Source: Alteromonas sp. V450 (GTDB lineage: Bacteria > Pseudomonadota > Gammaproteobacteria > Enterobacterales > Alteromonadaceae). From it: a stretch of DNA of 64,000 bases. This document shows, piece by piece, positions 12,672 to 23,111 of this stretch. How positions within the stretch are numbered: position 1 is the first letter of the stretch; each line of letters starts with the position of its first letter. Location: assembly GCF_001885075.1 (NCBI RefSeq), contig NZ_MODU01000004.1, positions 2,294,001-2,358,000 of the forward strand, read 5' to 3'. The position numbers and the translations under genes are program-made. The notes beneath the pieces were generated by a model that saw only the letters and a list, made by a program, of their open reading frames with translations, did not search any database and was not told the origin of the DNA.

Positions 12672-15600
12672 TTAGATTAATTCGTTAACCACTTCTATTG
12701 GGTGTCGTGGCTTTTTTCCTTCGAAACGCGCTACTTGGCTGCGACAGGAAAATCCGGTTACAAGCACTTCATTAGGCGTTGCATTTTTCGCGTGAGCAAA
12801 AACAGGTGCCCAACTTAGCGCAAAAAGTGCTTTAGAGTTTTTTACATGTATTGCTTCATGACCATAGGTTCCTGCCATACCACAGCAGCCTACAGGCTTA
12901 TGAGTAAGGTTAACACCTAAATGCTCAAATACACGCTGCCACCGCGCAGTGGTGTCAGGCATCGCGGTTTTTTCACTGCAGTGAGCAAGCAGCAAGTATT
13001 GTTTGTCGAAAGCGGGATTTTTAGTTGAATTTACATTTAGGCTTTTTGGCAACACACCGACTAACCATTCGTCAATCGTATTAACGACGAACTCTCCACG
13101 CTTATCTTTTAAAAATTTGCGATATTCGTCGCGATAGCACAGCACCAAGGATGCGTCGGCTCCGACCATAGTAATACCTAACTCATGGATTCTATTTAGC
13201 CGCTTTGCCGTCCCTAATGCGTGTTTTTCAAACTTACCTAGAAAGCCTTTAACATGGGCGGGCTTACCGTTTGGCGTAAAGGGAACAAGTAATGGCTTAA
13301 GGCCCATTTTACTGATGACCTTTATTAGGCTTTCTACACTTTTTGCGTCATAAAAACTGGTAAAAGGGTCTTGTACCACAGCAACGTATTTTTCCCGCTC
13401 ACGTTTATCAACGTGTTCTAGCTGTTCGATATTCCCTGTCTCTACAATCGATTTTACTCTGTCAGTAAGTGTGGGATAAGACAACAACGGCGTATCAACA
13501 TATCCAACCCTTCTCTCTAAAAACCTCTTCACCCACTTTTGCTGAAGAAGCATGTTATAGAGTCTAGGCACTCTAGCACTAAGAGGCGCTAGCGCTTCTA
13601 CATTTGCCACCAGTAAATCTTTAAACGGACGCATATAACGTTGGTAGTAAATAGACAAAAAGATGGATTTGAAGTGAGGAACGTCAATATTTACCGGACA
13701 CTGGTGGGTGCATGACTTACACGATAAGCAGCCATCCATCACCCCTTTAACTTCATGAGAAAAATCAGCGTCCCTGTTCAATACCGTATTTTTAAAACGA
13801 GAAAAAAAGTTACTTTTAAACTGCTTGTAAGATAACCCATCACCATTCTTCTCGTCTATTTGCCCGCTTAGCGATAGCAGTCGCGCCCACTCTCTTAGCA
13901 TGCTCGCCCTACCCTTTGGCGTATGACGTCTGTCTGACGTTACTTTACTCGAAGGGCACATGGGAGACGCTGGTTCGTAATTAAAGCAAAGACCATTTCC
14001 ATTGCACTCGAAAGCTGGCGCGAGGTCGCGTTTAACCGTTGTTGGAATAATCCGCTCGATACTCGCCCTTTTGACCGCTTTAACCGAAACTAACTTATCC
14101 TTACTGCCCAACGGCGTACAAATTTTCCCAGGGTTCATTTGATTATAAGGGTCGAACGCCGCTTTTATTTTGCGCATCTCGTTAAACAGCACTTCACCGA
14201 AAAACTCTGGGCCATACTCGCTTCGAAAGCCTTTGCCGTGCTCTCCCCACATTAGACCGCCATATTTAGATACAAGCTTTACCACCTTATCTGAAAGGTT
14301 ATGCATAAGTGTCTCTTGCTCGGAGTCGGCTAAATCAAGGGCAGGTCTTACATGTAGAACGCCAGCATCAACGTGCCCAAACATGCCATAGTTAAGGTTG
14401 TGGCTGTCTAGCAACTCGCGAAACTCAGCGATAAAATCAGCTAAATGCTCAGGAGGCACTGCGGTATCTTCCACAAAAGCAATAGGTTTCTGATCGCCCT
14501 TAACCTTTCCTAATAAACCCACTGCTTTTTTGCGCATGGCATAAATGCGTTGGATATCAGCTTTGTCATACGTAATCCTATAGCCTGAAATATCGCCTTC
14601 GCTTTGATTTATTGCATCTTCAATAGCGGTTTTAAGACCGTCAATGTGGCCCTTCATTTCCTCTATCGAACTGGCGTTATATTCCACTAGATTTAAACCT
14701 AGCAACGCTTCGTCAGGTACGTCGGTGATCAAGTGTTGTATGTCATGCCAAACTATGTCCGTTTTAGCAAAGTTGAGTACTGTACTATCAATCGTTTCCA
14801 CACTCGTCGCGTTCGCCTCAACTAATTGTGGAGCGTGTCTAAGTGCAGCATCGAATGAGCGGTAGGAAATATTTATAAGTGCTTTAACCGGCGCTATCTT
14901 ATCTAGTGTTAATACCGCTTCAGTGACAAACGCCAAAGACCCTTCAGCGCCTGTAATCAGCCTCCCAATATCGATGTGGTGACCATCGTATACGTGCGCT
15001 AAGTCATACCCTGTTAAAAAGCGATTTAGCTTTGGAAAAGTGCGATCTACTTCGTCCTTAAAGTTTATGCACGTATCTATAGCTTGTTTGTAGATAGCAC
15101 CTTCAGTGGTATGTTCAAGGGCTTTTCGCTTTGCCATTTCGACAGGTATTTTTGCGGTGTCGATTATCTCACCGTTAACTAGCACTGCTTTAAGTGCAAT
15201 AACGTGATCGCTTGTCTTACCGTAAACAAGCGACCCCTGCCCTGATGCATCAGTACTTATCATTCCGCCTAGTGTTGCTCTGTTGCTAGTAGAAAGGTCC
15301 GGTGAAAAAAACAGGCCATGGGGGCGTAAAACATCGTTGAGAGCATCCTTAACTATCCCTGTTTGTACTCTCACCCAGCCTTCTTCCACATTTAGCTCAA
15401 TCACTCTATTTAAATAGCGACGAATATCTACCACGATACCATCGGTGAGGCTTTGTCCGTTGGTACCTGTGCCTCCGCCTCGAGGAGCAAACGACACGTC
15501 AGGAAACTTAACCGCTAACTGGCCGATAAGCTGGCAGTCTTCGTTACTTCTAGGGTAAATAACGGCTTGAGGCAGCTTATAATAAACGGAATTATCAGTG

Positions 15601-15737
15601 GCTTGCGCTATGCGGGCGCTAAAGCTAGTTTCAATGTCACCAGTAAACTCGCTCGTTTCTAGACTTTTTATGAATGCGCGATACTGGATAGCTAAGTTTG
15701 AATCTGGTAATAGGGCGGGAAGAGTCACTACCTTCAT
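12672..15737 (-). CDS. ydiJ: YdiJ-type FAD-binding and 4Fe-4S dehydrogenase (probable D-2-hydroxyacid dehydrogenase)
   Basis: The 1021-aa fusion has an FAD-binding PCMH domain (FAPRGGGTGTNGQSLTDG, then LGGMISTDASGQGSLVYGKT) and an FAD-oxidase C-terminal domain (MFGHVDAGVLHVRPALDL, MWGEHGKGFRSEYGPEFFG). Next comes a ferredoxin-like region with cysteine clusters (CNGNGLCFNY.., CLSCKSCTHQCPVNIDVP), and finally a CCG-type domain (PVGCCGMAGTYGHEA). This is the GlcD/GlpC-like architecture of E. coli YdiJ, reported to oxidise D-2-hydroxyglutarate. The substrate here is inferred from that family. The start lies about 70 bases from a perfect Zur-like palindrome shared with the divergent GTPase gene. 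Confidence 0.9.
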   Translation of the reverse strand: MKVVTLPALLPDSNLAIQYRAFIKSLETSEFTGDIETSFSARIAQATDNSVYYKLPQAVIYPRSNEDCQLIGQLAVKFPDVSFAPRGGGTGTNGQSLTDGIVVDIRRYLNRVIELNVEEGWVRVQTGIVKDALNDVLRPHGLFFSPDLSTSNRATLGGMISTDASGQGSLVYGKTSDHVIALKAVLVNGEIIDTAKIPVEMAKRKALEHTTEGAIYKQAIDTCINFKDEVDRTFPKLNRFLTGYDLAHVYDGHHIDIGRLITGAEGSLAFVTEAVLTLDKIAPVKALINISYRSFDAALRHAPQLVEANATSVETIDSTVLNFAKTDIVWHDIQHLITDVPDEALLGLNLVEYNASSIEEMKGHIDGLKTAIEDAINQSEGDISGYRITYDKADIQRIYAMRKKAVGLLGKVKGDQKPIAFVEDTAVPPEHLADFIAEFRELLDSHNLNYGMFGHVDAGVLHVRPALDLADSEQETLMHNLSDKVVKLVSKYGGLMWGEHGKGFRSEYGPEFFGEVLFNEMRKIKAAFDPYNQMNPGKICTPLGSKDKLVSVKAVKRASIERIIPTTVKRDLAPAFECNGNGLCFNYEPASPMCPSSKVTSDRRHTPKGRASMLREWARLLSLSGQIDEKNGDGLSYKQFKSNFFSRFKNTVLNRDADFSHEVKGVMDGCLSCKSCTHQCPVNIDVPHFKSIFLSIYYQRYMRPFKDLLVANVEALAPLSARVPRLYNMLLQQKWVKRFLERRVGYVDTPLLSYPTLTDRVKSIVETGNIEQLEHVDKREREKYVAVVQDPFTSFYDAKSVESLIKVISKMGLKPLLVPFTPNGKPAHVKGFLGKFEKHALGTAKRLNRIHELGITMVGADASLVLCYRDEYRKFLKDKRGEFVVNTIDEWLVGVLPKSLNVNSTKNPAFDKQYLLLAHCSEKTAMPDTTARWQRVFEHLGVNLTHKPVGCCGMAGTYGHEAIHVKNSKALFALSWAPVFAHAKNATPNEVLVTGFSCRSQVARFEGKKPRHPIEVVNELI

Positions 15738-15803
15738 TTCCTTGTTAAAACGGGCGAATCAATGACGAAACAACATGTAACACTGCACTTACACAGCTCA
15801 ACA

Positions 15804-15820
15804 ATGTTATAATATAACAT
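15804..15820. promoter_or_regulatory. Zur-box-like perfect palindrome
   Basis: ATGTTATAATATAACAT is a perfect 17-bp palindrome and matches the core of the gammaproteobacterial Zur operator as I know it (TGTTATA-N-TATAACA). It lies 93 bases before the CobW-type GTPase start and 67 bases before the divergent ydiJ start. Confidence 0.75.
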
Positions 15821-15912
15821 ATCCAATTTGTATTACAGGGGAAGCCTGTTGGTGTGATAGCCTGTAATTCTACGTTTTAATAATGCGTCGCATAATAAGA
15901 GCATATACAACT

Positions 15913-16932
15913 ATGATTAATGCAGTGCCTACCAACATCATTACGGGCTTTCTAGGTGTGGGAAAAACATCCGCTATACTGCACCTTTTAAAGCAAAAAC
16001 CTTCAAACGAACGTTGGGCAATCTTGATTAATGAGTTTGGCGAGATAGGTATTGATGGTGCGCTTGTGCAAGGTATGCTTGCTCAAAAAACCGCTTCCAA
16101 TTCAGAAGATACGCAGACAATATTTATTAAAGAGGTGCCCGGCGGCTGCATGTGCTGCGCTGCCGGTTTACCTATGCAAATAGCATTAAATCAATTACTC
16201 GCCCAGTCTAAACCCGACCGTTTATTGATTGAACCTACTGGGCTAGGGCACCCCGTAGAAGTTATGCAAACCTTAAGCGCTGAACATTATGAAGACGTGC
16301 TGGATATTCAGCGTACTATCACGTTTGTTGATGCAAGAAAGCTAACCGACCCTCGCTATACCACGCACGCCACGTTTAATCAGCAAATCGATATTGCCGA
16401 TGTAATAGTAGGAAATAAATGCGATCTTTACGGGCTTAATGAGGAAGAAAATTTAGCGCGCTATGCCGTTAATAGAGGCAAGCAGAACACACCTATCGTA
16501 CTTTGCGAACATGGTGAAATACCGTTTGCTGTATTACAAGGAAAGTCGGATTCGCTTGTAGAAATGCATGCACATGCCCATCATCACCACAATAACGAGC
16601 CTACACTTTCAATTAACGAACGACCCTTTCCTGATTCAGGCTTTTTAAAAATCGAAAATGAAGGGGAAGGATTTAAAGCTGTGGGATGGCGCTACTCCCC
16701 CTCCATAGAATTCGATAGAAATGCGCTATTAGCCTGGATAAATAAGCTTGAAGTAGAACGCTTAAAAGCGGTGATGATCACGAGCACAGGCATATTTAGC
16801 TACAACCTTGCAGACGGCAATCTGGTTGAAGTCGAGCTGAGTGAATGTGCTGAAAGTACAATTGAAATTATTGCGACTAACGTCAATTCCAATTGGAATG
16901 ACGAATTAGCCGCGTGTGTTCTCATCAGATAA
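15913..16932 (+). CDS. COG0523 CobW/ZigA-type GTP-binding metallochaperone
   Basis: This G3E-class GTPase has Walker A as GFLGVGKTS (about residues 12-20), the metal-binding GGCMCC motif (about 76-82), switch/Walker B as LLIEPTGLGHP, and base recognition as VGNKCDL. A histidine-rich loop (HAHAHHHH, about residue 219) separates it from the CobW C-terminal domain. COG0523 proteins near Zur are thought to deliver zinc to client enzymes in zinc starvation. A longer frame opens at 15883; the ATG at 15913 fits family starts (MINAVPTNIITGFLG). An upstream Zur-like palindrome supports zinc control. It converges on the dihydroorotase gene. Confidence 0.9.
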   Translation: MINAVPTNIITGFLGVGKTSAILHLLKQKPSNERWAILINEFGEIGIDGALVQGMLAQKTASNSEDTQTIFIKEVPGGCMCCAAGLPMQIALNQLLAQSKPDRLLIEPTGLGHPVEVMQTLSAEHYEDVLDIQRTITFVDARKLTDPRYTTHATFNQQIDIADVIVGNKCDLYGLNEEENLARYAVNRGKQNTPIVLCEHGEIPFAVLQGKSDSLVEMHAHAHHHHNNEPTLSINERPFPDSGFLKIENEGEGFKAVGWRYSPSIEFDRNALLAWINKLEVERLKAVMITSTGIFSYNLADGNLVEVELSECAESTIEIIATNVNSNWNDELAACVLIR

Positions 16933-17023
16933 TCATGCGCTAGGCAAGCTTACAGCGGCAGAATAATCATTTGAAGCTAATAAAATGGATTGGGGCTCTT
17001 GTTGTCAGACCTAAGGCGCAGAT

Positions 17024-18355
17024 TTAACACCTTGCATATTTTATCTCTCCGTCCACCAGCGTGTAATATGTTTCGCCATACAACGTCTCGTTGATAAAGG
17101 GCGAGCTTTGAGACTTAGAAGCAAAGAAGGAGGGCGTTACTGTAAACGGCGTTTTTAAATCAAATAGCGCCAAGTCTGCATCTGCGCCTTCTTCAATTCG
17201 TCCACATTTAATATTAAATATCGCTCCAGCTTGCTTACTCATAAGATCGATAGCGGTATTTAAATTAAGCTTTCCCGTTTTAACAAAGTGCGTGTAAATA
17301 AGGGCAAATGCGGTTTCTAACCCTATAATGCCAAAGGGCGCTTTCTCAATATGCAAATCTTTCTCATGCGGAGCGTGTGGAGCATGATCAGTAGCGATAG
17401 CATCTATTACCCCATCTGTTAACGCTTTTTGGCATGCAAGCATATCGCTTCTAGAACGAAGGGGTGGGTTCATTTTCCAGTTAGCGTCAAGCGTACCATC
17501 GGCCTTAACTGGAATATCCTCATCACAGAGTAATAAGTGATGAGGTGAAACTTCTACCGTTACTCTAGCCCCTTTTGCTTTTGCCTGCCTGATAGCCTCT
17601 ATAGATTCTGCTGTAGAAACGTGTAAAACGTGATAATGCCCTCCGGTCTCCTCACTGTATTCACACCCCCGCTTCACATGCACCGACTCTGAAGATGCCT
17701 TTATACCGTTTACATTATGCTTTCTAGACACGACGCCTTCGTGAATGGCACCGCCGTTTGACAGGCTCTCATCTTCGCTATGATCAAGCACTGGCATCCC
17801 AAGTGCCTTGGCGTCATTAAGTGCTTGCTTAAACAAACTATCATCTTGAACACCTTTACCGTCGTCGGTAATGGCAACGACACCTGCCGCTTGAAGCGTT
17901 TTAAAATCTGTTAACTCTTTTCCTTCTAAACCCTTTGAAAGTGCCCCCGTCGGATACACCTTACACAACCCCGTTGTGCTAGCCTTCTCAACCATAAAAG
18001 CTACTGTTTCTGCATTATCAGCCGTTGGCGTTGTATTTGGCATTGACACCACCGACGTAAACCCTCCTTTTACTGCTGCGCGGCTCCCGGAAGCTATGTC
18101 TTCTTTATACTCCATGCCTGGTTCTCTGAAGTGTACCTGGGGGTCGAGCAATCCCGGAGACAGAAATAATCCAGTTGCATCAATCACTTTTTCGAAAGTG
18201 CTATCGGTAGAAACTGTTTGTGACGCCGGTAATGGACAATCTAAGACCTGAACAATTTTACCCTTTTCGATGACAAGTGAAATAGTGACAACGTCATGGC
18301 CATTTCCACCCAACAGATGAGATGTGGTTGAAGCGTTATTGATTAGTATCTTCAT
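17024..18355 (-). CDS. Dihydroorotase-like amidohydrolase, zur-linked paralogue
   Basis: The 443-aa protein is a class I dihydroorotase-type amidohydrolase: LSPGLLDPQVHFREPGMEYKED, SMPNTTPTADN, VLDHSED, VSPHHLLL, MNPPLRS and IATDHAPHAPHEKD are all visible. The usual first metal motif HxH reads Q73-V-H75, so one expected zinc ligand is glutamine; I recall this QxH form in some class I dihydroorotases, so it need not be inactive. The enzyme would close carbamoyl-aspartate to dihydroorotate in pyrimidine synthesis. The frame opens at 18376, but the ATG at 18355 follows AAGGGA and gives the normal N-terminus. It lies 34 bases after zur in an apparent operon, as seen for pyrC paralogues serving zinc starvation. 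Confidence 0.85.
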   Translation of the reverse strand: MKILINNASTTSHLLGGNGHDVVTISLVIEKGKIVQVLDCPLPASQTVSTDSTFEKVIDATGLFLSPGLLDPQVHFREPGMEYKEDIASGSRAAVKGGFTSVVSMPNTTPTADNAETVAFMVEKASTTGLCKVYPTGALSKGLEGKELTDFKTLQAAGVVAITDDGKGVQDDSLFKQALNDAKALGMPVLDHSEDESLSNGGAIHEGVVSRKHNVNGIKASSESVHVKRGCEYSEETGGHYHVLHVSTAESIEAIRQAKAKGARVTVEVSPHHLLLCDEDIPVKADGTLDANWKMNPPLRSRSDMLACQKALTDGVIDAIATDHAPHAPHEKDLHIEKAPFGIIGLETAFALIYTHFVKTGKLNLNTAIDLMSKQAGAIFNIKCGRIEEGADADLALFDLKTPFTVTPSFFASKSQSSPFINETLYGETYYTLVDGEIKYARC

Positions 18356-18389
18356 AAGTCCCTTCGTATAAAACAATTAAAATTTGGGA

Positions 18390-18842
18390 TTATTGGCAGC
18401 GTGCGCAAACACACGCGACTTCTAGGTGAGGCGTAATGATCTCGCATTGGAAAGCTTGTGCTTGTTGAACAAGATGCTCATAAACGATGGGATCGACATT
18501 AGTTTCTTCAACTGCGCCGCACCGCACACAAATTAGAAATTGCGAATACCCATGGCGTTCACAACATTTAGCGCGAGCGCATCCAATATACTTATTATTA
18601 AGATTAAGTTTATGAATTAAATTTGCTTGAGACAGGAATTCAAGTACCCTGTAGATTGTCATTGGCTTGATGTTTTCGTCATACTTCTCAGCGTATAAAT
18701 CTTTTATTTCGTATGCCGACAGCGGAGAGGAGCCTTCTATTAAAATGTTAAGCACCTGCTTACGCTTCTGTGTTAAACGTAGTCCATCTATCGCACATTT
18801 GTCCTGAGCTATCACAAGTAAGTTTTGAAATCGTTGGTCCAT
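18390..18842 (-). CDS. zur: Fur-family zinc uptake regulator (Zur)
   Basis: The 150-aa Fur-family repressor has a winged-helix DNA-binding domain (RLTQKRKQVLNIL, LSAYEIKDLY, MTIYRVLEFL) and a dimerisation/metal domain. Structural-zinc cysteine pairs are C105/C108 (CVRC) and C146/C149 (CARC). CCERHGY near residue 94 supplies ligands of the regulatory site. The operator-like palindromes in the neighbourhood match the Zur consensus, which favours Zur over Fur. It heads a probable zur-dihydroorotase operon and has a palindrome 65 bases upstream, suggesting autoregulation. Confidence 0.9.
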   Translation of the reverse strand: MDQRFQNLLVIAQDKCAIDGLRLTQKRKQVLNILIEGSSPLSAYEIKDLYAEKYDENIKPMTIYRVLEFLSQANLIHKLNLNNKYIGCARAKCCERHGYSQFLICVRCGAVEETNVDPIVYEHLVQQAQAFQCEIITPHLEVACVCARCQ

Positions 18843-18905
18843 ACTGCCCTTTTAAAGCATTACAGATGCTCTACTCTGACGCTTTTCAATGTTTAAAACC
18901 ACTAT

Positions 18906-18921
18906 AGTTACAATATAACAT
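18906..18921. promoter_or_regulatory. Zur-box-like site upstream of zur
   Basis: GTTACAATATAACAT (18907-18921) differs by one base from the core of the perfect palindrome at 15804. The identical 15-mer recurs at 19273-19287. Its position 65 bases upstream of the zur start suggests autoregulation. Confidence 0.65.
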
Positions 18922-19251
18922 ATCACTTTTAAAAATATGCATCGAACGCTAACTTTTCTTTTTGCTCATATTTATTGATTATCCCTTTATTGGCGTGGCT
19001 ATCTTTACTGTAAGTGGTCACTCAATTCAAAACCGCACAGGCATATCGCTCTAGGAAAATCTCATGATTCGCTTACAGTGATAAGCTCAATTCTTTTCGC
19101 TTTGCGAAGCATGCAAAGCTTTCTTGACCTCTCTGCAAAGCGCGCTAACGCGAATCAGATAAACAGTCGCAAGTGAAATGAAAAATGTGTTGAAAAAGGA
19201 TACTGATAGAAAATGACTATCACGGATAAATAATTACATATTGTCGATAAC

Positions 19252-19264
19252 GTTATATTGTCCT
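19252..19264. promoter_or_regulatory. Degenerate second Zur-like site
   Basis: GTTATATTGT followed by CCT resembles the reverse complement of the 19273 site (11 of 13 positions). It lies just upstream of the clear site, so it may be an accessory operator. Confidence 0.35.
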
Positions 19265-19271
19265 CCACAAA

Positions 19272-19287
19272 GGTTACAATATAACAT
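19272..19287. promoter_or_regulatory. Zur-box-like site upstream of the NTF2-like gene
   Basis: GTTACAATATAACAT is identical to the 15-mer in front of zur and sits 26 bases before the ATG at 19314, a position suited to blocking transcription. Confidence 0.65.
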
Positions 19288-19313
19288 AACGCTCAATATA
19301 AGGAGTTAAATTA

Positions 19314-19778
19314 ATGTTTACAGATGAAATGGTACATACTGCACTTCAGACTTGGTGTGACAATGTCGTTGCCGTTGGAAAGGTACATGCGGAAGGCGGC
19401 GATGTGAAGGCTTTTGCTTCAGAAATTCTGTCGAATAATTACGATTACGATAACGGTAAGGTCCTATTCAAGCCAACGCTAACTTTTGGCTCTCAAACAT
19501 TTCGCTCTACCAAAGAAGGCGCACTATCTTACTTTGTTGGAGGAAACAGCGCTTACCCCAATGATAATGGCTTTAAGCTTAAGCCATGGGTGAAAGTTTG
19601 GTACAGCAAAGAAGACTACATCTTAAATGGTGATTTGGCTATCGTTCAATGTAACGTTCATTTTATTGGAGAAGATGACAGCCATATTTTTGTGAACAAA
19701 AGTTTTGTGTTCAAGCAGTGCGACGATGGAAAAATAAGAATTATTCTTCATCAGTCTTCACTTCCTTATCAGCCATAA
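19314..19778 (+). CDS. NTF2/SnoaL-like small protein, probable Zur-regulon member, function unknown
   Basis: The 154-aa protein has no signal peptide. The alternation of an N-terminal helix (ALQTWCDNVVAVGKVHAEGGD), a long central loop and C-terminal strands (DLAIVQCNVHFIGEDDSHIFVNKSFVFKQCDDGKIRIILHQSS) resembles the SnoaL/NTF2 cone fold. The last strand resembles CaMKII-association-domain-like bacterial proteins. Possible ligands (H129-type histidine, several aspartates, two cysteines) are visible, but no catalytic set is clear. AGGAG lies 8 bases before the ATG. A Zur-like palindrome immediately upstream places it with the zinc genes. It ends at a strong terminator. The fold call is inference. 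Confidence 0.75.
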   Translation: MFTDEMVHTALQTWCDNVVAVGKVHAEGGDVKAFASEILSNNYDYDNGKVLFKPTLTFGSQTFRSTKEGALSYFVGGNSAYPNDNGFKLKPWVKVWYSKEDYILNGDLAIVQCNVHFIGEDDSHIFVNKSFVFKQCDDGKIRIILHQSSLPYQP

Positions 19779-19800
19779 GCCTAGAGCACCCAACCTTGAA

Positions 19801-19837
19801 AAAACGAGGCACCAAAAAACTTGTGCCTCGTTTATTA
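19801..19837 (+). terminator. Rho-independent terminator
   Basis: ACGAGGCAC (19804-19812) pairs with GTGCCTCGT (19823-19831) across an A-rich loop, followed by TTATTA. It lies 22 bases after the NTF2-like gene. Confidence 0.75.
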
Positions 19838-19918
19838 AAAATAATTCCAGCACGAGTCTCATCATTACACTGAGTGCAACGGAGATAGGAACGGTGTCGC
19901 CTATCTCCTCTTGCGATA

Positions 19919-20575
19919 TCACATTGGCAATAATGTGCCCTCAACATAGCCCGAATAAACTGAGAGTATATGTGCATTTCTTTGAAATACGTTTACTGTA
20001 AAAGTTCCCTGTATCTCTTTATATTCATTAATGCTAAACGTTACATTAATCTTTTTATAGGCACCTTCTGACGCATCACAGTTACACAGCGACACGGTTT
20101 TTATTTGATAATCGGCCTCACTGGTTGCAGATAAACGTCCTAAAGCAAGCGTCGAACTATCCATCAGAAATTTAACCTCTAAATCGGCGTTTACGCTCAT
20201 CAAAAACAATTCACTATCATTTCGATCCAGTCTAGACAACGTTAATACCCATATACCTTGATAGTCAGCAGGCCAATCAGTACTTGCTTCTTCTGAAGAG
20301 GACACCTCAAAACGAGGAACAAGTGGAGCGACTGGAAAACGCCTAGGAGGCCACATATCTACAGGGGTGCCATTTGTAGAGCGCTTCGCTAAGTCAGCCG
20401 ATGGTATTGGCGTATTTTGAACTCGCCTATTTGTGAAAAGAGAAAATGGCGAACTTTGAGCACCAAACGTTTTAGTATCATGCCCATTAGCCGGTGCGTC
20501 CGTTGCAGCATCTAGTCCATTGGCAAGAAAGGTGAAGAGTATGACTATACCGATTTTCAACGTCGATTTGTCCAT
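19919..20575 (-). CDS. Exported hypothetical protein
   Basis: The 218-aa protein has an N-terminal signal peptide (KIGIVILFTFLANGLDA). A proline/serine-rich low-complexity segment follows, then a compact C-terminal region beginning WPADYQGIWVLTLSRLD with predicted beta strands and two closely spaced cysteines (SLCNCDAS). It could be a small lipocalin-like or beta-sandwich domain, but I do not recognise the family. The frame opens at 20590; the ATG at 20575 is preferred because GGAG lies nine bases ahead. It stands between the zinc island and the CadC-like regulator. Confidence 0.65.
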   Translation of the reverse strand: MDKSTLKIGIVILFTFLANGLDAATDAPANGHDTKTFGAQSSPFSLFTNRRVQNTPIPSADLAKRSTNGTPVDMWPPRRFPVAPLVPRFEVSSSEEASTDWPADYQGIWVLTLSRLDRNDSELFLMSVNADLEVKFLMDSSTLALGRLSATSEADYQIKTVSLCNCDASEGAYKKINVTFSINEYKEIQGTFTVNVFQRNAHILSVYSGYVEGTLLPM

Positions 20576-20834
20576 GGTCGTTTGCTCCATTATTTACATG
20601 TTGTCGTTAACATCAAAAAGTGGAACTAAATATCGTTTAATTACCCATGATAAACCGGAAGTATTTCTGAAATTTTTGTGATTAATATATTCAAATCATA
20701 TTCGAGCACCTGTTCCAGCTCACTAAATACACGATCTTCTGCACCTAATCTTACTACAGTAAATTAGCGTTTGACGCATCACGGCACCAGTCGATTTTAC
20801 GGGAGGGCAAAGGAGTCTAGAAACTGATTTCCGC

Positions 20835-23111
20835 TCAAAATTCCCACGCTAACTCTCGGTTCATTTTAGAAAGCTTGTGTGTATATTTCGCTTCTAAGTC
20901 AAGAAACCGGCTGTCCTCACGTAATGTTGAAAAAGCAGGGCTTTGAAAGTAAGGATAATATCGTCCGATAGCCATCACGTCGTTACCGTCAACAAGCAAT
21001 GTTAGAAGTGATATAGCACGTTCACTGTTTCCTAGTAGCGCGTGGTACTCCGCGCTAAAAGCGATAGGCATCACTTTCTCCTTAAACATCGACTCAACCT
21101 TATTAGAAATCTCTTCGGAAGACAGTATGGCGTCACCCTGTTGTTCAAAATAAATGGCAGTTAATAAGTTAAGCGATGCTATATTTGAGAACCCACCCCC
21201 GTTTAATTCTCCTTCGAGTATACGCTCATACGTTGCTTTATACTTTTCCAAAAGGTGGACTGGCATTATTAAAAGTGCTTGCCCAACCATTGACCTAATA
21301 TAAGATGAACTAAGGTGAGCATCTTCTAAGCCAGATAAATGCAGTGATAACCCGGCAACATCCTTCTCATATATTGCTTTAGCAAATGTAACATGGAAAC
21401 AATCGACCTTTGTTAGAGCTGGCAACGTTCCCTTTTCTTCGCACAAAGAAAATAAACGTATGATCTCGTCTTTTCTGTTAGCTACAACCAAAACACTCAG
21501 ATCAAGCATGAGCGTTTTGGTTAACGGGTTACTTGCTCGTTCTTGCTTGGCCCAGTCCAACGTCTGTTGATACTGACCTGATAATGTGCTCGCCAACGCC
21601 TCCATCCATGCTGTTGTGGGGTCTTGTGGCGCTATTTCTCTCATTTTCGCAAATATTGAATGAGCATTTTTTTCTTCTCCAAGCAGTAAGTTGACAAACG
21701 CAAGCCCACCATAAAGTCTATAGGAAAGAGGGTGAGTGCCTATCCCTTCTCTCGCTATAGCAAGTGCTTTCTCATATTGATGGTGGATAGTCAGTAAGTA
21801 GGTATAATTGAAATAAAAGTTAAAACTTTTCTCACCTAACATTTTAGCTTCGGAAAAATGCGCTAATGCCTTTTGTATATTGCCTCTTGTCGGATCGCTC
21901 ATGAGGGGCATGTGCAGCATTCCTTCAAAAAAAGATAGCGTGCTACTCGAGATCCCAATTGCTCGGCTTTGCTTCAGGAAGACTTTGGCAGCGTTGACTA
22001 CCGCATCTTGCTCTTTTCCTGATGTTAAGTTCATCATCTCGAGATAATTGCTTGTGATCGACTCGACTATTAGCTGGCTCTTGGGCGACTGAGCATTCGC
22101 CCTTACAAGATAATCCTGAGCCTTTTGAAGGGCTTCAAGATTGTAATTCTGGGTAAGGATATCCATTGCTAACAGATAAAGTCGATAAGCTTCTTCAGAT
22201 TGAGGGCTAGGCGCAATCAGCTTGTGCTCAATACCTAAATGTGCAGTTATACTCATAACCAAGTCATTCACTGCATGTTGCATATTCAGTGGCTCTACTG
22301 TTTTGCTATTGGAAAAAAGCGTAAACCCCGAATCTACTTCAACGAGTCTGTAGGTTACGCTATGCTCGTTACCCTCACGTCTAACAGCCCCTTCAAGAAT
22401 AAGGTCGACTGGTAACAAGCTTTGAATTTCTTTAAGGCTATGTTTATTGGTTCTAAAATAAGCACTCGACGTTCGACTCGCTACTTTGAAATTGTCAACG
22501 TGTGACAAATGCGTGAGAGCTAACTCAAGTAGGCCGTTTGCTAAGGTACGTTCATCTTTGCTGTCACTGTCTGTCACGTCAAAAGGAATGACAAGTACTC
22601 GATATTCCTTCTGAGAATTGTCACCAAGGCCACTGAAAAATACTGTAACGACTGCTATCAACACAGTTGCAAGGATGAGCAAATGAACAATCGGAGAACG
22701 TTTTTTCACACTGTGAGCTTGAACAGATTGTGTGGCCGGTAATTCAGAAGGTGCTTCGACAGCAGGGCTTTGTACCTGACAAACTTCTGTCAATAGTGAT
22801 AACTCAAGCCGATAACCTCGTTTAGGAACGGTTGTAATTATCTTCTTATTAGTATCCAGCAGCCTAGAAAGTGATTTTCGAAGTTCTGAGATGGCGCGAG
22901 ACAGTGATTCATCACCACCAAACCTGTCCGCCCACACAGAGTCCAACAACTGCTCTCTCGTCACCACTCCCCCGTTTCCTTGATGTAAGGTGCAGAATAC
23001 TTCCATAACTTTTGGTGAAAGCTTCTCGGTTCGGGCTTGGAAATGAAGTGTATTAGCTAAGGGGTCTATTGATAATGCAGCAATACAAAATTGACGATTT
23101 AGGTCATTCAT
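20835..23111 (-). CDS. CadC/ToxR-like membrane transcription regulator with TPR-type sensor region
   Basis: The 758-aa protein starts with an OmpR/PhoB-type winged helix (about residues 10-105: LSPKVMEVF, VVTREQLLDSVWADRFGGDESLSRAISELRKSL, TVPKRGYRL). One transmembrane helix follows (about 143-165, HLLILATVLIAVVTVFF). The next part resembles the FlgO-like domain common in these regulators (VLVIPFDVTDSDS.., LILEGAVRREGNEH). The long C-terminal region consists of helical TPR-like repeats. The topology implies a periplasmic sensor driving a cytoplasmic DNA-binding domain. It is divergent from the DUF885 gene at 23394, a likely target. Confidence 0.88.
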   Translation of the reverse strand: MNDLNRQFCIAALSIDPLANTLHFQARTEKLSPKVMEVFCTLHQGNGGVVTREQLLDSVWADRFGGDESLSRAISELRKSLSRLLDTNKKIITTVPKRGYRLELSLLTEVCQVQSPAVEAPSELPATQSVQAHSVKKRSPIVHLLILATVLIAVVTVFFSGLGDNSQKEYRVLVIPFDVTDSDSKDERTLANGLLELALTHLSHVDNFKVASRTSSAYFRTNKHSLKEIQSLLPVDLILEGAVRREGNEHSVTYRLVEVDSGFTLFSNSKTVEPLNMQHAVNDLVMSITAHLGIEHKLIAPSPQSEEAYRLYLLAMDILTQNYNLEALQKAQDYLVRANAQSPKSQLIVESITSNYLEMMNLTSGKEQDAVVNAAKVFLKQSRAIGISSSTLSFFEGMLHMPLMSDPTRGNIQKALAHFSEAKMLGEKSFNFYFNYTYLLTIHHQYEKALAIAREGIGTHPLSYRLYGGLAFVNLLLGEEKNAHSIFAKMREIAPQDPTTAWMEALASTLSGQYQQTLDWAKQERASNPLTKTLMLDLSVLVVANRKDEIIRLFSLCEEKGTLPALTKVDCFHVTFAKAIYEKDVAGLSLHLSGLEDAHLSSSYIRSMVGQALLIMPVHLLEKYKATYERILEGELNGGGFSNIASLNLLTAIYFEQQGDAILSSEEISNKVESMFKEKVMPIAFSAEYHALLGNSERAISLLTLLVDGNDVMAIGRYYPYFQSPAFSTLREDSRFLDLEAKYTHKLSKMNRELAWEF

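Follow-up and report, generated by a model that had tools for sequence, protein, structure and literature searches.

A 64-kb stretch of the Alteromonas sp. V450 genome (the window; the source assembly comprises 4,394,900 bases, or 4.39 Mb) carries, between 15.8 and 19.8 kb, a COG0523 GTPase gene, the minus-strand gene zur followed by a dihydroorotase paralogue, and a plus-strand gene for a 154-aa protein. Near-identical palindromes precede these three units, and the locus raises the question of what the small protein would do in a regulon of the zinc regulator Zur. Judging from sequence comparison and structural modeling, it is likely that the third unit of a zinc-sparing Zur regulon encodes a metal-free iota-class carbonic anhydrase (CA), a zinc-free understudy for the beta-class CA (beta-CA) of the same genome. 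The features of the locus are as follows.

12672..15737, minus strand: FAD-linked oxidoreductase with a 4Fe-4S domain (Pfam), divergent from the COG0523 gene, with box 1 in the common intergenic region
15804..15820: putative Zur box 1, ATGTTATAATATAACAT, between the divergent oxidoreductase and COG0523 genes; matrix score 26.9 (in the training set)
15883..16932, plus strand: COG0523 (cobW-type) GTPase, putative zinc metallochaperone (Pfam cobW, E 2.9e-43)
17024..18355, minus strand: dihydroorotase paralogue of class I type (dihydroorotase-type amidohydrolase, E 1.7e-29), 34 bp after zur
18390..18842, minus strand: zur, Fur-family zinc regulator with two CxxC pairs (Pfam FUR, E 2.6e-13)
18907..18921: putative Zur box 2, GTTACAATATAACAT, 64 bp before zur; score 19.6 (training-set member)
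19204..19222: LysR-type palindrome TGATAG-N7-CTATCA, upstream of box 3; the same element as in the beta-CA/LysR intergenic regions of relatives
19273..19287: putative Zur box 3, GTTACAATATAACAT, upstream of the iota-CA gene; score 19.2 (not in the training set)
19314..19778, plus strand: iota-CA homologue (COG4337), 154 aa, without a leader peptide (NCBIfam NF047901, E 3e-36; PDB 7c5v/7c5x)

Zur-type boxes in the window

A preliminary description of this DNA had pointed out a perfect palindrome at 15804-15820 and an identical 15-mer at 18907-18921 and 19273-19287. Both were found as described, ATGTTATAATATAACAT being palindromic around its central base, and they precede the COG0523 GTPase, zur with the dihydroorotase paralogue, and an 'NTF2-like' gene. 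The calls of the COG0523, zur, and dihydroorotase-type genes were upheld by Pfam. In comparison with the Escherichia coli Zur motif as quoted in PMC6103462, the three palindromes look like gammaproteobacterial Zur boxes. With up to one mismatch allowed, GTTAYAATATAAC gave four matches in the window, representing three places, one of which was read on both strands; shuffled windows contained 0.17 matches on average, and none of 100 shuffles reached four. A matrix built with all iota-CA sites left out was also applied to the window, boxes 1 and 2 belonging to the training set and box 3 lying outside it. As a result, the three boxes received the highest scores (26.9, 19.6, and 19.2), the next best place scoring 8.6. 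A fourth, degenerate site had been proposed at 19252; its score of -8.9 and more than three mismatches from the palindrome rule it out as a Zur box.

The distance from the end of the exact 13-mer is 64 bp to the COG0523 gene for box 1 and 28 bp to the iota-CA start codon for box 3. Box 3 contains TACAAT (read by eye), a possible -10 hexamer of the iota-CA promoter; when 18850-19330 was searched for sigma-70 promoters, a single weak match was obtained, located outside box 3 and at chance level. The position of box 2 suggests that zur may be autoregulated. The oxidoreductase gene that has box 1 in common with COG0523 is a possible extra Zur target, and the same layout, with a box between the two genes, was found in the relative G256 (L093). 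The best NCBIfam matches of the zur product (PRK11639 Zur, E 3.2e-20) and of the dihydroorotase paralogue (dihydroorotase, E 9e-144) both lie below the curated cut-offs of the models. An Rfam scan of 15000-21000 gave no matches.

The 154-aa protein as a homologue of metal-free carbonic anhydrases

The 154-aa protein had been regarded as an NTF2-like orphan and its gene as uncharacterised. Neither label holds: the protein is a homologue of the metal-free iota-CAs (COG4337), a characterised family, and this identity makes the zinc-sparing reading more specific than the earlier proposal. It matches the NCBIfam model NF047901 'metal-independent carbonic anhydrase' with E 3e-36, and the crystal structures 7c5v and 7c5x with E 1.6e-29 and 2.4e-62, respectively. 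The AlphaFold2 model, based on 23 aligned proteins from the window and the loci, has a mean pLDDT of 94.1. According to the analysis in Foldseek, the top match of this model is 7c5v (TM 0.96, rmsd 1.1 Å), followed by 7c5x (TM 0.94) and 7c5y, with other NTF2-like proteins far behind. The closest named relatives of the protein belong to Alteromonas.

Among 295 genomes of the family searched at the protein level, 48 were found to encode iota-CA relatives. These relatives split into two kinds without intermediates, 15 places showing 82-100% identity and 40 showing 45% or less. A maximum-likelihood tree with 69 rows places the first kind on one side of a branch supported at 99/96 (with a long-branch warning). 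Most proteins of the second kind that were read by eye have N-terminal leaders resembling secretion or lipoprotein signals; those of G047 and G001 lack them. The source genome carries one iota-CA of each kind, and its second copy scores 146.6 with NF047901 and 0.7 with the box matrix. In all, the clade of the first kind was found in Alteromonadales, Sphingomonadales, Marinomonas, Pseudomonas, and Bacteroidota.

In the experimental work on all2909, this iota-CA was active without metal and required Thr106, Tyr124, His197, and Ser199 (Hirakawa et al. 2021, PMC8132391); alanine mutants at the four positions were inactive (PMC8132391). All four residues are kept in 15/15 members of the clade, the window protein included, and in 35/35 more distant ones, with the all2909 numbering anchored on spacing, an anchoring that also places Lys180 correctly. 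From its kinship with COG4337, the 154-aa protein would be metal-independent; zinc or manganese has been reported for other iota-CAs, those of the COG4875 type (PMC8425729).

Two observations weigh against the identification. The NF047901 score of 124.7 bits is far under the curated cut-off of 350, so the protein is filed as a homologue that would work like the members of this family, not as an equivalog. In addition, the HHSS signature reads HQSS, with Gln at residue 198 in 15/15 clade members and 10/35 of the others. Together with an identity to the solved iota-CAs of only about 34-38% and the functional diversity of NTF2-like folds, the missed cut-off and the lost second His would fit a Zur-controlled product with an NTF2 fold and a different enzyme activity, or one that handles zinc. 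The retention of the four essential residues even in the 35 distant members speaks against such a product, which is regarded as improbable; two further arguments come from the promoter comparisons given below.

Conservation of the boxes and extent of the putative regulon

A matrix built from 25 sites, none of them at iota-CA genes, was used, and a score of at least 9 within 300 bp upstream was counted as a box. Scanning covered 50 of the 55 places, leaving out G293:C48, G060, G136 (partial), G250, and G289:C9 (internal stops). Boxes were detected in 10/15 members of the first kind versus 2/35 iota-CAs of the second kind (Fisher 1.5e-5). Among the named relatives, 53 loci of the first kind were collected and 52 scored, L184 having too little upstream sequence; 19 of them scored at least 9, and 26 at least 7. 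In background tiles of the same loci, 9/1735 reached 9 and 11/1735 reached 7, and eight of those nine high-scoring tiles sit near COG0523 gene starts. In gene-upstream regions of other loci, 10/172 scored at least 9, a null set that itself includes COG0523 promoters (the top two of the four printed). The boxes extend to Sphingobium (22.4 at -110) and Marinomonas (19.1 at -90).

Near the iota-CA genes of the 14 other clade members in the family, no further window gene was found within about 5 kb; hence the box was not merely inherited with the zur neighbourhood, which among these genomes is particular to the source genome.

Several features of this comparison lessen its force. The score threshold was set after the scores had been seen, and the rows are related, so the nominal p-values overstate independence and are too small. 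Five of the 15 first-kind members score below 9 (one of them 7.6), including the same-genus G244 at 90% identity, and 33 of the 52 named loci also score below 9.

Two leader-bearing iota-CAs of another genus (L054/L086 and L059/L087) were also seen with Zur-like boxes, scoring 13.7 and 18.5, so iota-CA genes may have come under Zur on more than one occasion.

The exact sequence GTTAYANTATAAC occurs at six places in the 4.39 Mb, and 6/6 precede plausible zinc-limitation genes: COG0523, zur, iota-CA, PhoX, MerC followed by FolE2, and a second MerC. By strand, the matches number 6 and 3, versus 2 and 3 for a reversed-pattern control. This number is only modestly above the control, which counts against the boxes as a group, and it is therefore the placement of all six before zinc genes that carries the case. 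One-mismatch boxes were rejected as further targets, the genome containing 33 matches versus 84 for the control pattern; in 10 of the 14 such loci read (L007-L020) the box lies within a called reading frame. One such box, at L009, was retained for its near-palindromic form and its good position ahead of a second COG0523 gene.

More evidence was obtained from 16 relatives, picked for iota-CA genes of interest. The strict palindrome was found in them at 26 places in 14 genomes, versus 3 for the reversed control. Downstream genes were assigned from the layout and from Pfam scans of most places. As a result, 24/26 boxes were found to precede COG0523, TonB-receptor, ZrgA, MerC, ABC-ATPase, DUF1826, or iota-CA genes. 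TonB-dependent receptors follow eight of the boxes (one of the eight being shared with ZrgA), COG0523 and iota-CA genes four each, ABC ATPases three, MerC two, and DUF1826 one; a further box is located between ZrgA and PhoX and another between a TonB receptor (~90 bp away) and iota-CA (489 bp away). Of the last two boxes, one falls within a gene recognised by eye as metK-like, and the other is followed by a gene without a Pfam match. In G226 and G065, the iota-CA box is the sole strict box of the genome.

AT-rich boxes of Fur-family regulators look alike, and the palindromes could in principle be sites of another such regulator or chance AT-rich palindromes. The lack of a genome excess at one mismatch and the modest excess at none agree with this explanation, but exact matches that precede zinc-type genes and zur itself, and 26 strict sites against 3 in relatives, mostly before ZrgA, MerC, COG0523, and TonB receptors, make it very improbable. 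Returning to Zur, the preliminary description had proposed one compact regulon. The comparative evidence supports a single Zur regulon that includes the three window units. The part about compactness did not stand: the regulon is wider than 4 kb, since PhoX, MerC-FolE2, and the second MerC are boxed elsewhere and a near-match lies at the second COG0523 gene. A ZnuA-family protein was not found in the source genome by a search that was positive in 11/14 control genomes.

Two partners of the iota-CA gene in the putative regulon deserve mention. In the dihydroorotase paralogue, the first His of the metal-binding HxH motif is replaced by Gln (DPQVHFREP), whereas the remaining class I ligand motifs appear intact from the sequence. 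Elsewhere the genome encodes a canonical PyrC with HLH, and it thus has zinc-dependent counterparts for both proteins, beta-CA for iota-CA and PyrC for the paralogue. The second partner is located outside the window:

L088:4603-6014 (C4:2725347-2726758 of the source genome): PhoX-family phosphatase gene, with a full Zur-type box 45 bp before the start codon

PhoX-type phosphatases use calcium and iron, not zinc. A search of 118 genomes gave 37 PhoX places, 30 of them with loci that were scanned; 12/30 have a box scoring at least 9 within 300 bp upstream of the match start, a single one of these coming from the training set, and the stretch scanned was not the true promoter for L233 (flank at a contig end) and L256 (partial match). 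No paper linking PhoX to Zur was found among the best-ranked matches in the open-licence literature, judged by title and abstract start.

The FolE2 gene behind MerC and a Zur-type box (L089:5470-6423, source genome) gives a Pfam/NCBIfam match that begins at profile position 83. It appears to be broken in the assembly, an N-terminal-like part being seen by eye in another frame with stops.

The LysR-type palindrome and the proposed zinc switch

A second element of the iota-CA promoter is the palindrome TGATAG-N7-CTATCA at 19204..19222, first spotted by eye in the upstream regions of 8/15 clade members. In those eight genomes it occurs at 25 places, versus 2 for a control, and in six of them a further copy lies between a beta-CA gene and a divergent LysR gene. 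The relatives' beta-CA and LysR genes were named by sequence, Pfam having been run on LysR in L121, L189, L205, and the pair of the source genome, and the inspection of palindromes covered beta-CA loci other than that of G256. In the source genome, a slightly relaxed palindrome is located between LysR and a beta-CA-SulP operon, whose beta-CA is of the zinc type (CxDxR and HxxC motifs); strict copies were also seen ahead of a 122-aa gene and within another gene. It is common for LysR proteins to bind elements of this sort beside their own gene. From this habit and the common palindrome, a single LysR protein would control both anhydrases. CmpR, CcmR, and CbbR are known for LysR-type control of inorganic-carbon genes; in comparison with them, the peculiarity here is that a beta-CA-SulP operon and a CA of the metal-free type have one palindrome in common.

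The element is less impressive in other counts. Its relaxed form occurs at six places in the source genome versus three for the control, and the palindrome was found in only 10/52 named loci, all of them Alteromonadaceae.

In G047 and G001, which lack the first-kind clade, the palindrome lies by a LysR-iota-CA pair divergent from a SulP-like gene (called from N-terminal resemblance), i.e., a distant iota-CA takes the usual place of beta-CA. This arrangement and the LysR element common to the iota-CA and beta-CA promoters are the two further arguments against another activity of the 154-aa protein. The layout was read at L205:3078-6465 and L208:3058-6465, with the palindrome between a SulP-like gene and LysR or at the LysR start; iota-CA occupies there the position held by beta-CA in other genomes.

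The palindrome also allows iota-CA to be seen mainly as a LysR-run low-CO2 gene, Zur control being secondary or lost in many strains. The Aliiglaciecola locus L160, with the palindrome and no scoring box, and the five clade members below the box threshold are in keeping with this. However, in the 52 loci the Zur box (19 at 9 or above, 26 at 7 or above) is commoner than the palindrome (10), it reaches Sphingobium and Marinomonas, where the palindrome is unmatched, and certain loci that lack a nearby box (L176, L178, and L180) have the gene in an operon-like series with COG0523. A mainly LysR-run gene is thus considered unlikely, although somewhat less so than a product of another activity.

The preferred reading of iota-CA as a zinc-starvation substitute can be formulated as follows. 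With zinc plentiful, zinc-loaded Zur would sit on the promoter-overlapping box and keep the iota-CA gene off, while the zinc enzyme beta-CA would supply bicarbonate. With zinc scarce, Zur would be released and iota-CA would take over CO2 hydration without zinc, the dihydroorotase paralogue, PhoX, and the metallochaperones acting alongside it. The upstream LysR-type element, common with the beta-CA promoter, probably ties iota-CA to the same carbon signal. The data show the boxes with their placement and conservation, the homology, fold, and catalytic residues of the protein, and the LysR element common to both promoters. The argument is thus strong as far as a Zur-boxed homologue of metal-free CAs; beyond it we infer binding by Zur and LysR, repression by zinc, the exact place of the promoter, enzyme activity, and substitution for beta-CA. 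The broadest version has about an even chance of being right: a mobile clade of metal-free CAs would be dedicated to standing in for beta-CA during zinc starvation. In Alteromonadaceae, its promoter would have two inputs and would require the removal of zinc-loaded Zur as well as a CA-linked LysR signal, and, with Zur-linked PhoX, carbon and phosphorus enzymes in the sea would be switched directly by zinc status.

Zur regulons and metal-free iota-CAs are each known, and the new part appears to be their combination. No report joining COG4337 or iota-CA to Zur was found among the best-ranked matches in the open-licence literature, judged by title and abstract start. A Zur-boxed iota-CA suggests a natural job for metal-free CAs and, if true, adds a metal-free class to the Zur-controlled substitutes; together with PhoX, it suggests that the choice of carbon and phosphorus enzymes in marine heterotrophs may depend on zinc status.

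YtiB of Bacillus subtilis is a beta-class CA. It is likewise part of a Zur regulon (PMC6103462) and belongs to a different protein class from the iota-CA homologue. The islands of Pseudomonas and Cupriavidus described by Haas et al. 2009 are alike in their Zur-linked COG0523, PyrC paralogue, FolE2, and CA genes (PMC2770081), which were proposed as substitutes for zinc enzymes. Their CA is of the gamma class with a proposed use of iron (PMC2770081), whereas here a COG4337 iota-class homologue is found and PhoX is also boxed. A cluster of Burkholderia cenocepacia H111, upregulated on zinc depletion, similarly has COG0523 beside CA, dihydroorotase, QueD, and FolE2; the CA class is unstated and a COG4337 protein unnamed in the available text (PMC10563805). 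Compared with all2909 and Bn86287 (Hirakawa et al. 2021), the source clade is alike in fold, catalytic residues, and the NTF2-like domain and differs in the absence of a leader peptide, in HQSS for HHSS, and in its Zur-type promoter, no metal-responsive control being reported in the available text on those two proteins (PMC8132391). Metal-free iota-CAs have already been proposed to help in metal-poor seas (PMC8132391), and Zur boxes on iota-CA genes in several bacterial groups would give this proposal a regulatory basis.

The surroundings of iota-CA genes elsewhere recall such islands. In Pseudomonas nabeulensis, iota-CA is codirectional with other genes in the order FolE2-COG0523-CysRS-...-iota-CA-ThrRS-DHO-...-HisI, where DHO is a dihydroorotase-type amidohydrolase; Haas et al. 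2009 tie island genes of this sort to Zur as substitutes, with a gamma-CA (PMC2770081). A Sphingomonas bin has COG0523, a Fur-like ORF (30% to zur by BLAST, no Pfam match), PhoX, and then iota-CA, and in Sphingobacterium, Pedobacter, and Parapedobacter iota-CA lies near COG0523. Nearness to COG0523 was nevertheless discarded as evidence and tells against the reading as far as it goes: the gene is in the fetched flank at 15/53 clade loci and, with a similar frequency, at 5/20 control loci of the second kind. At 5/5 of these control loci, iota-CA is on the opposite strand from the COG0523-DUF1826 genes. The rows labelled 'Arthrobacter' (L165) and 'Bacillus' (L169) are probably mislabelled assemblies, as they group with Sphingomonas and have a G+C of 0.67-0.68, and no gene was therefore counted in those phyla; the same doubt about labelling applies to the metagenome bins, to which the Gemmatimonadota row, several rows of Sphingomonas, and part of those of Bacteroidota belong.

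At L194, L201, L202, and L203, a leader-bearing iota-CA is located by a gene pair of the size of a kinase and a regulator (Pfam-confirmed in L203 only), near COG0523-DUF1826. In addition, the LysR-type palindrome precedes a gene for a conserved, secreted-looking 122-aa protein without a Pfam match in the source genome (L191:2502, i.e., C4:2058295) and in G256 (L128).

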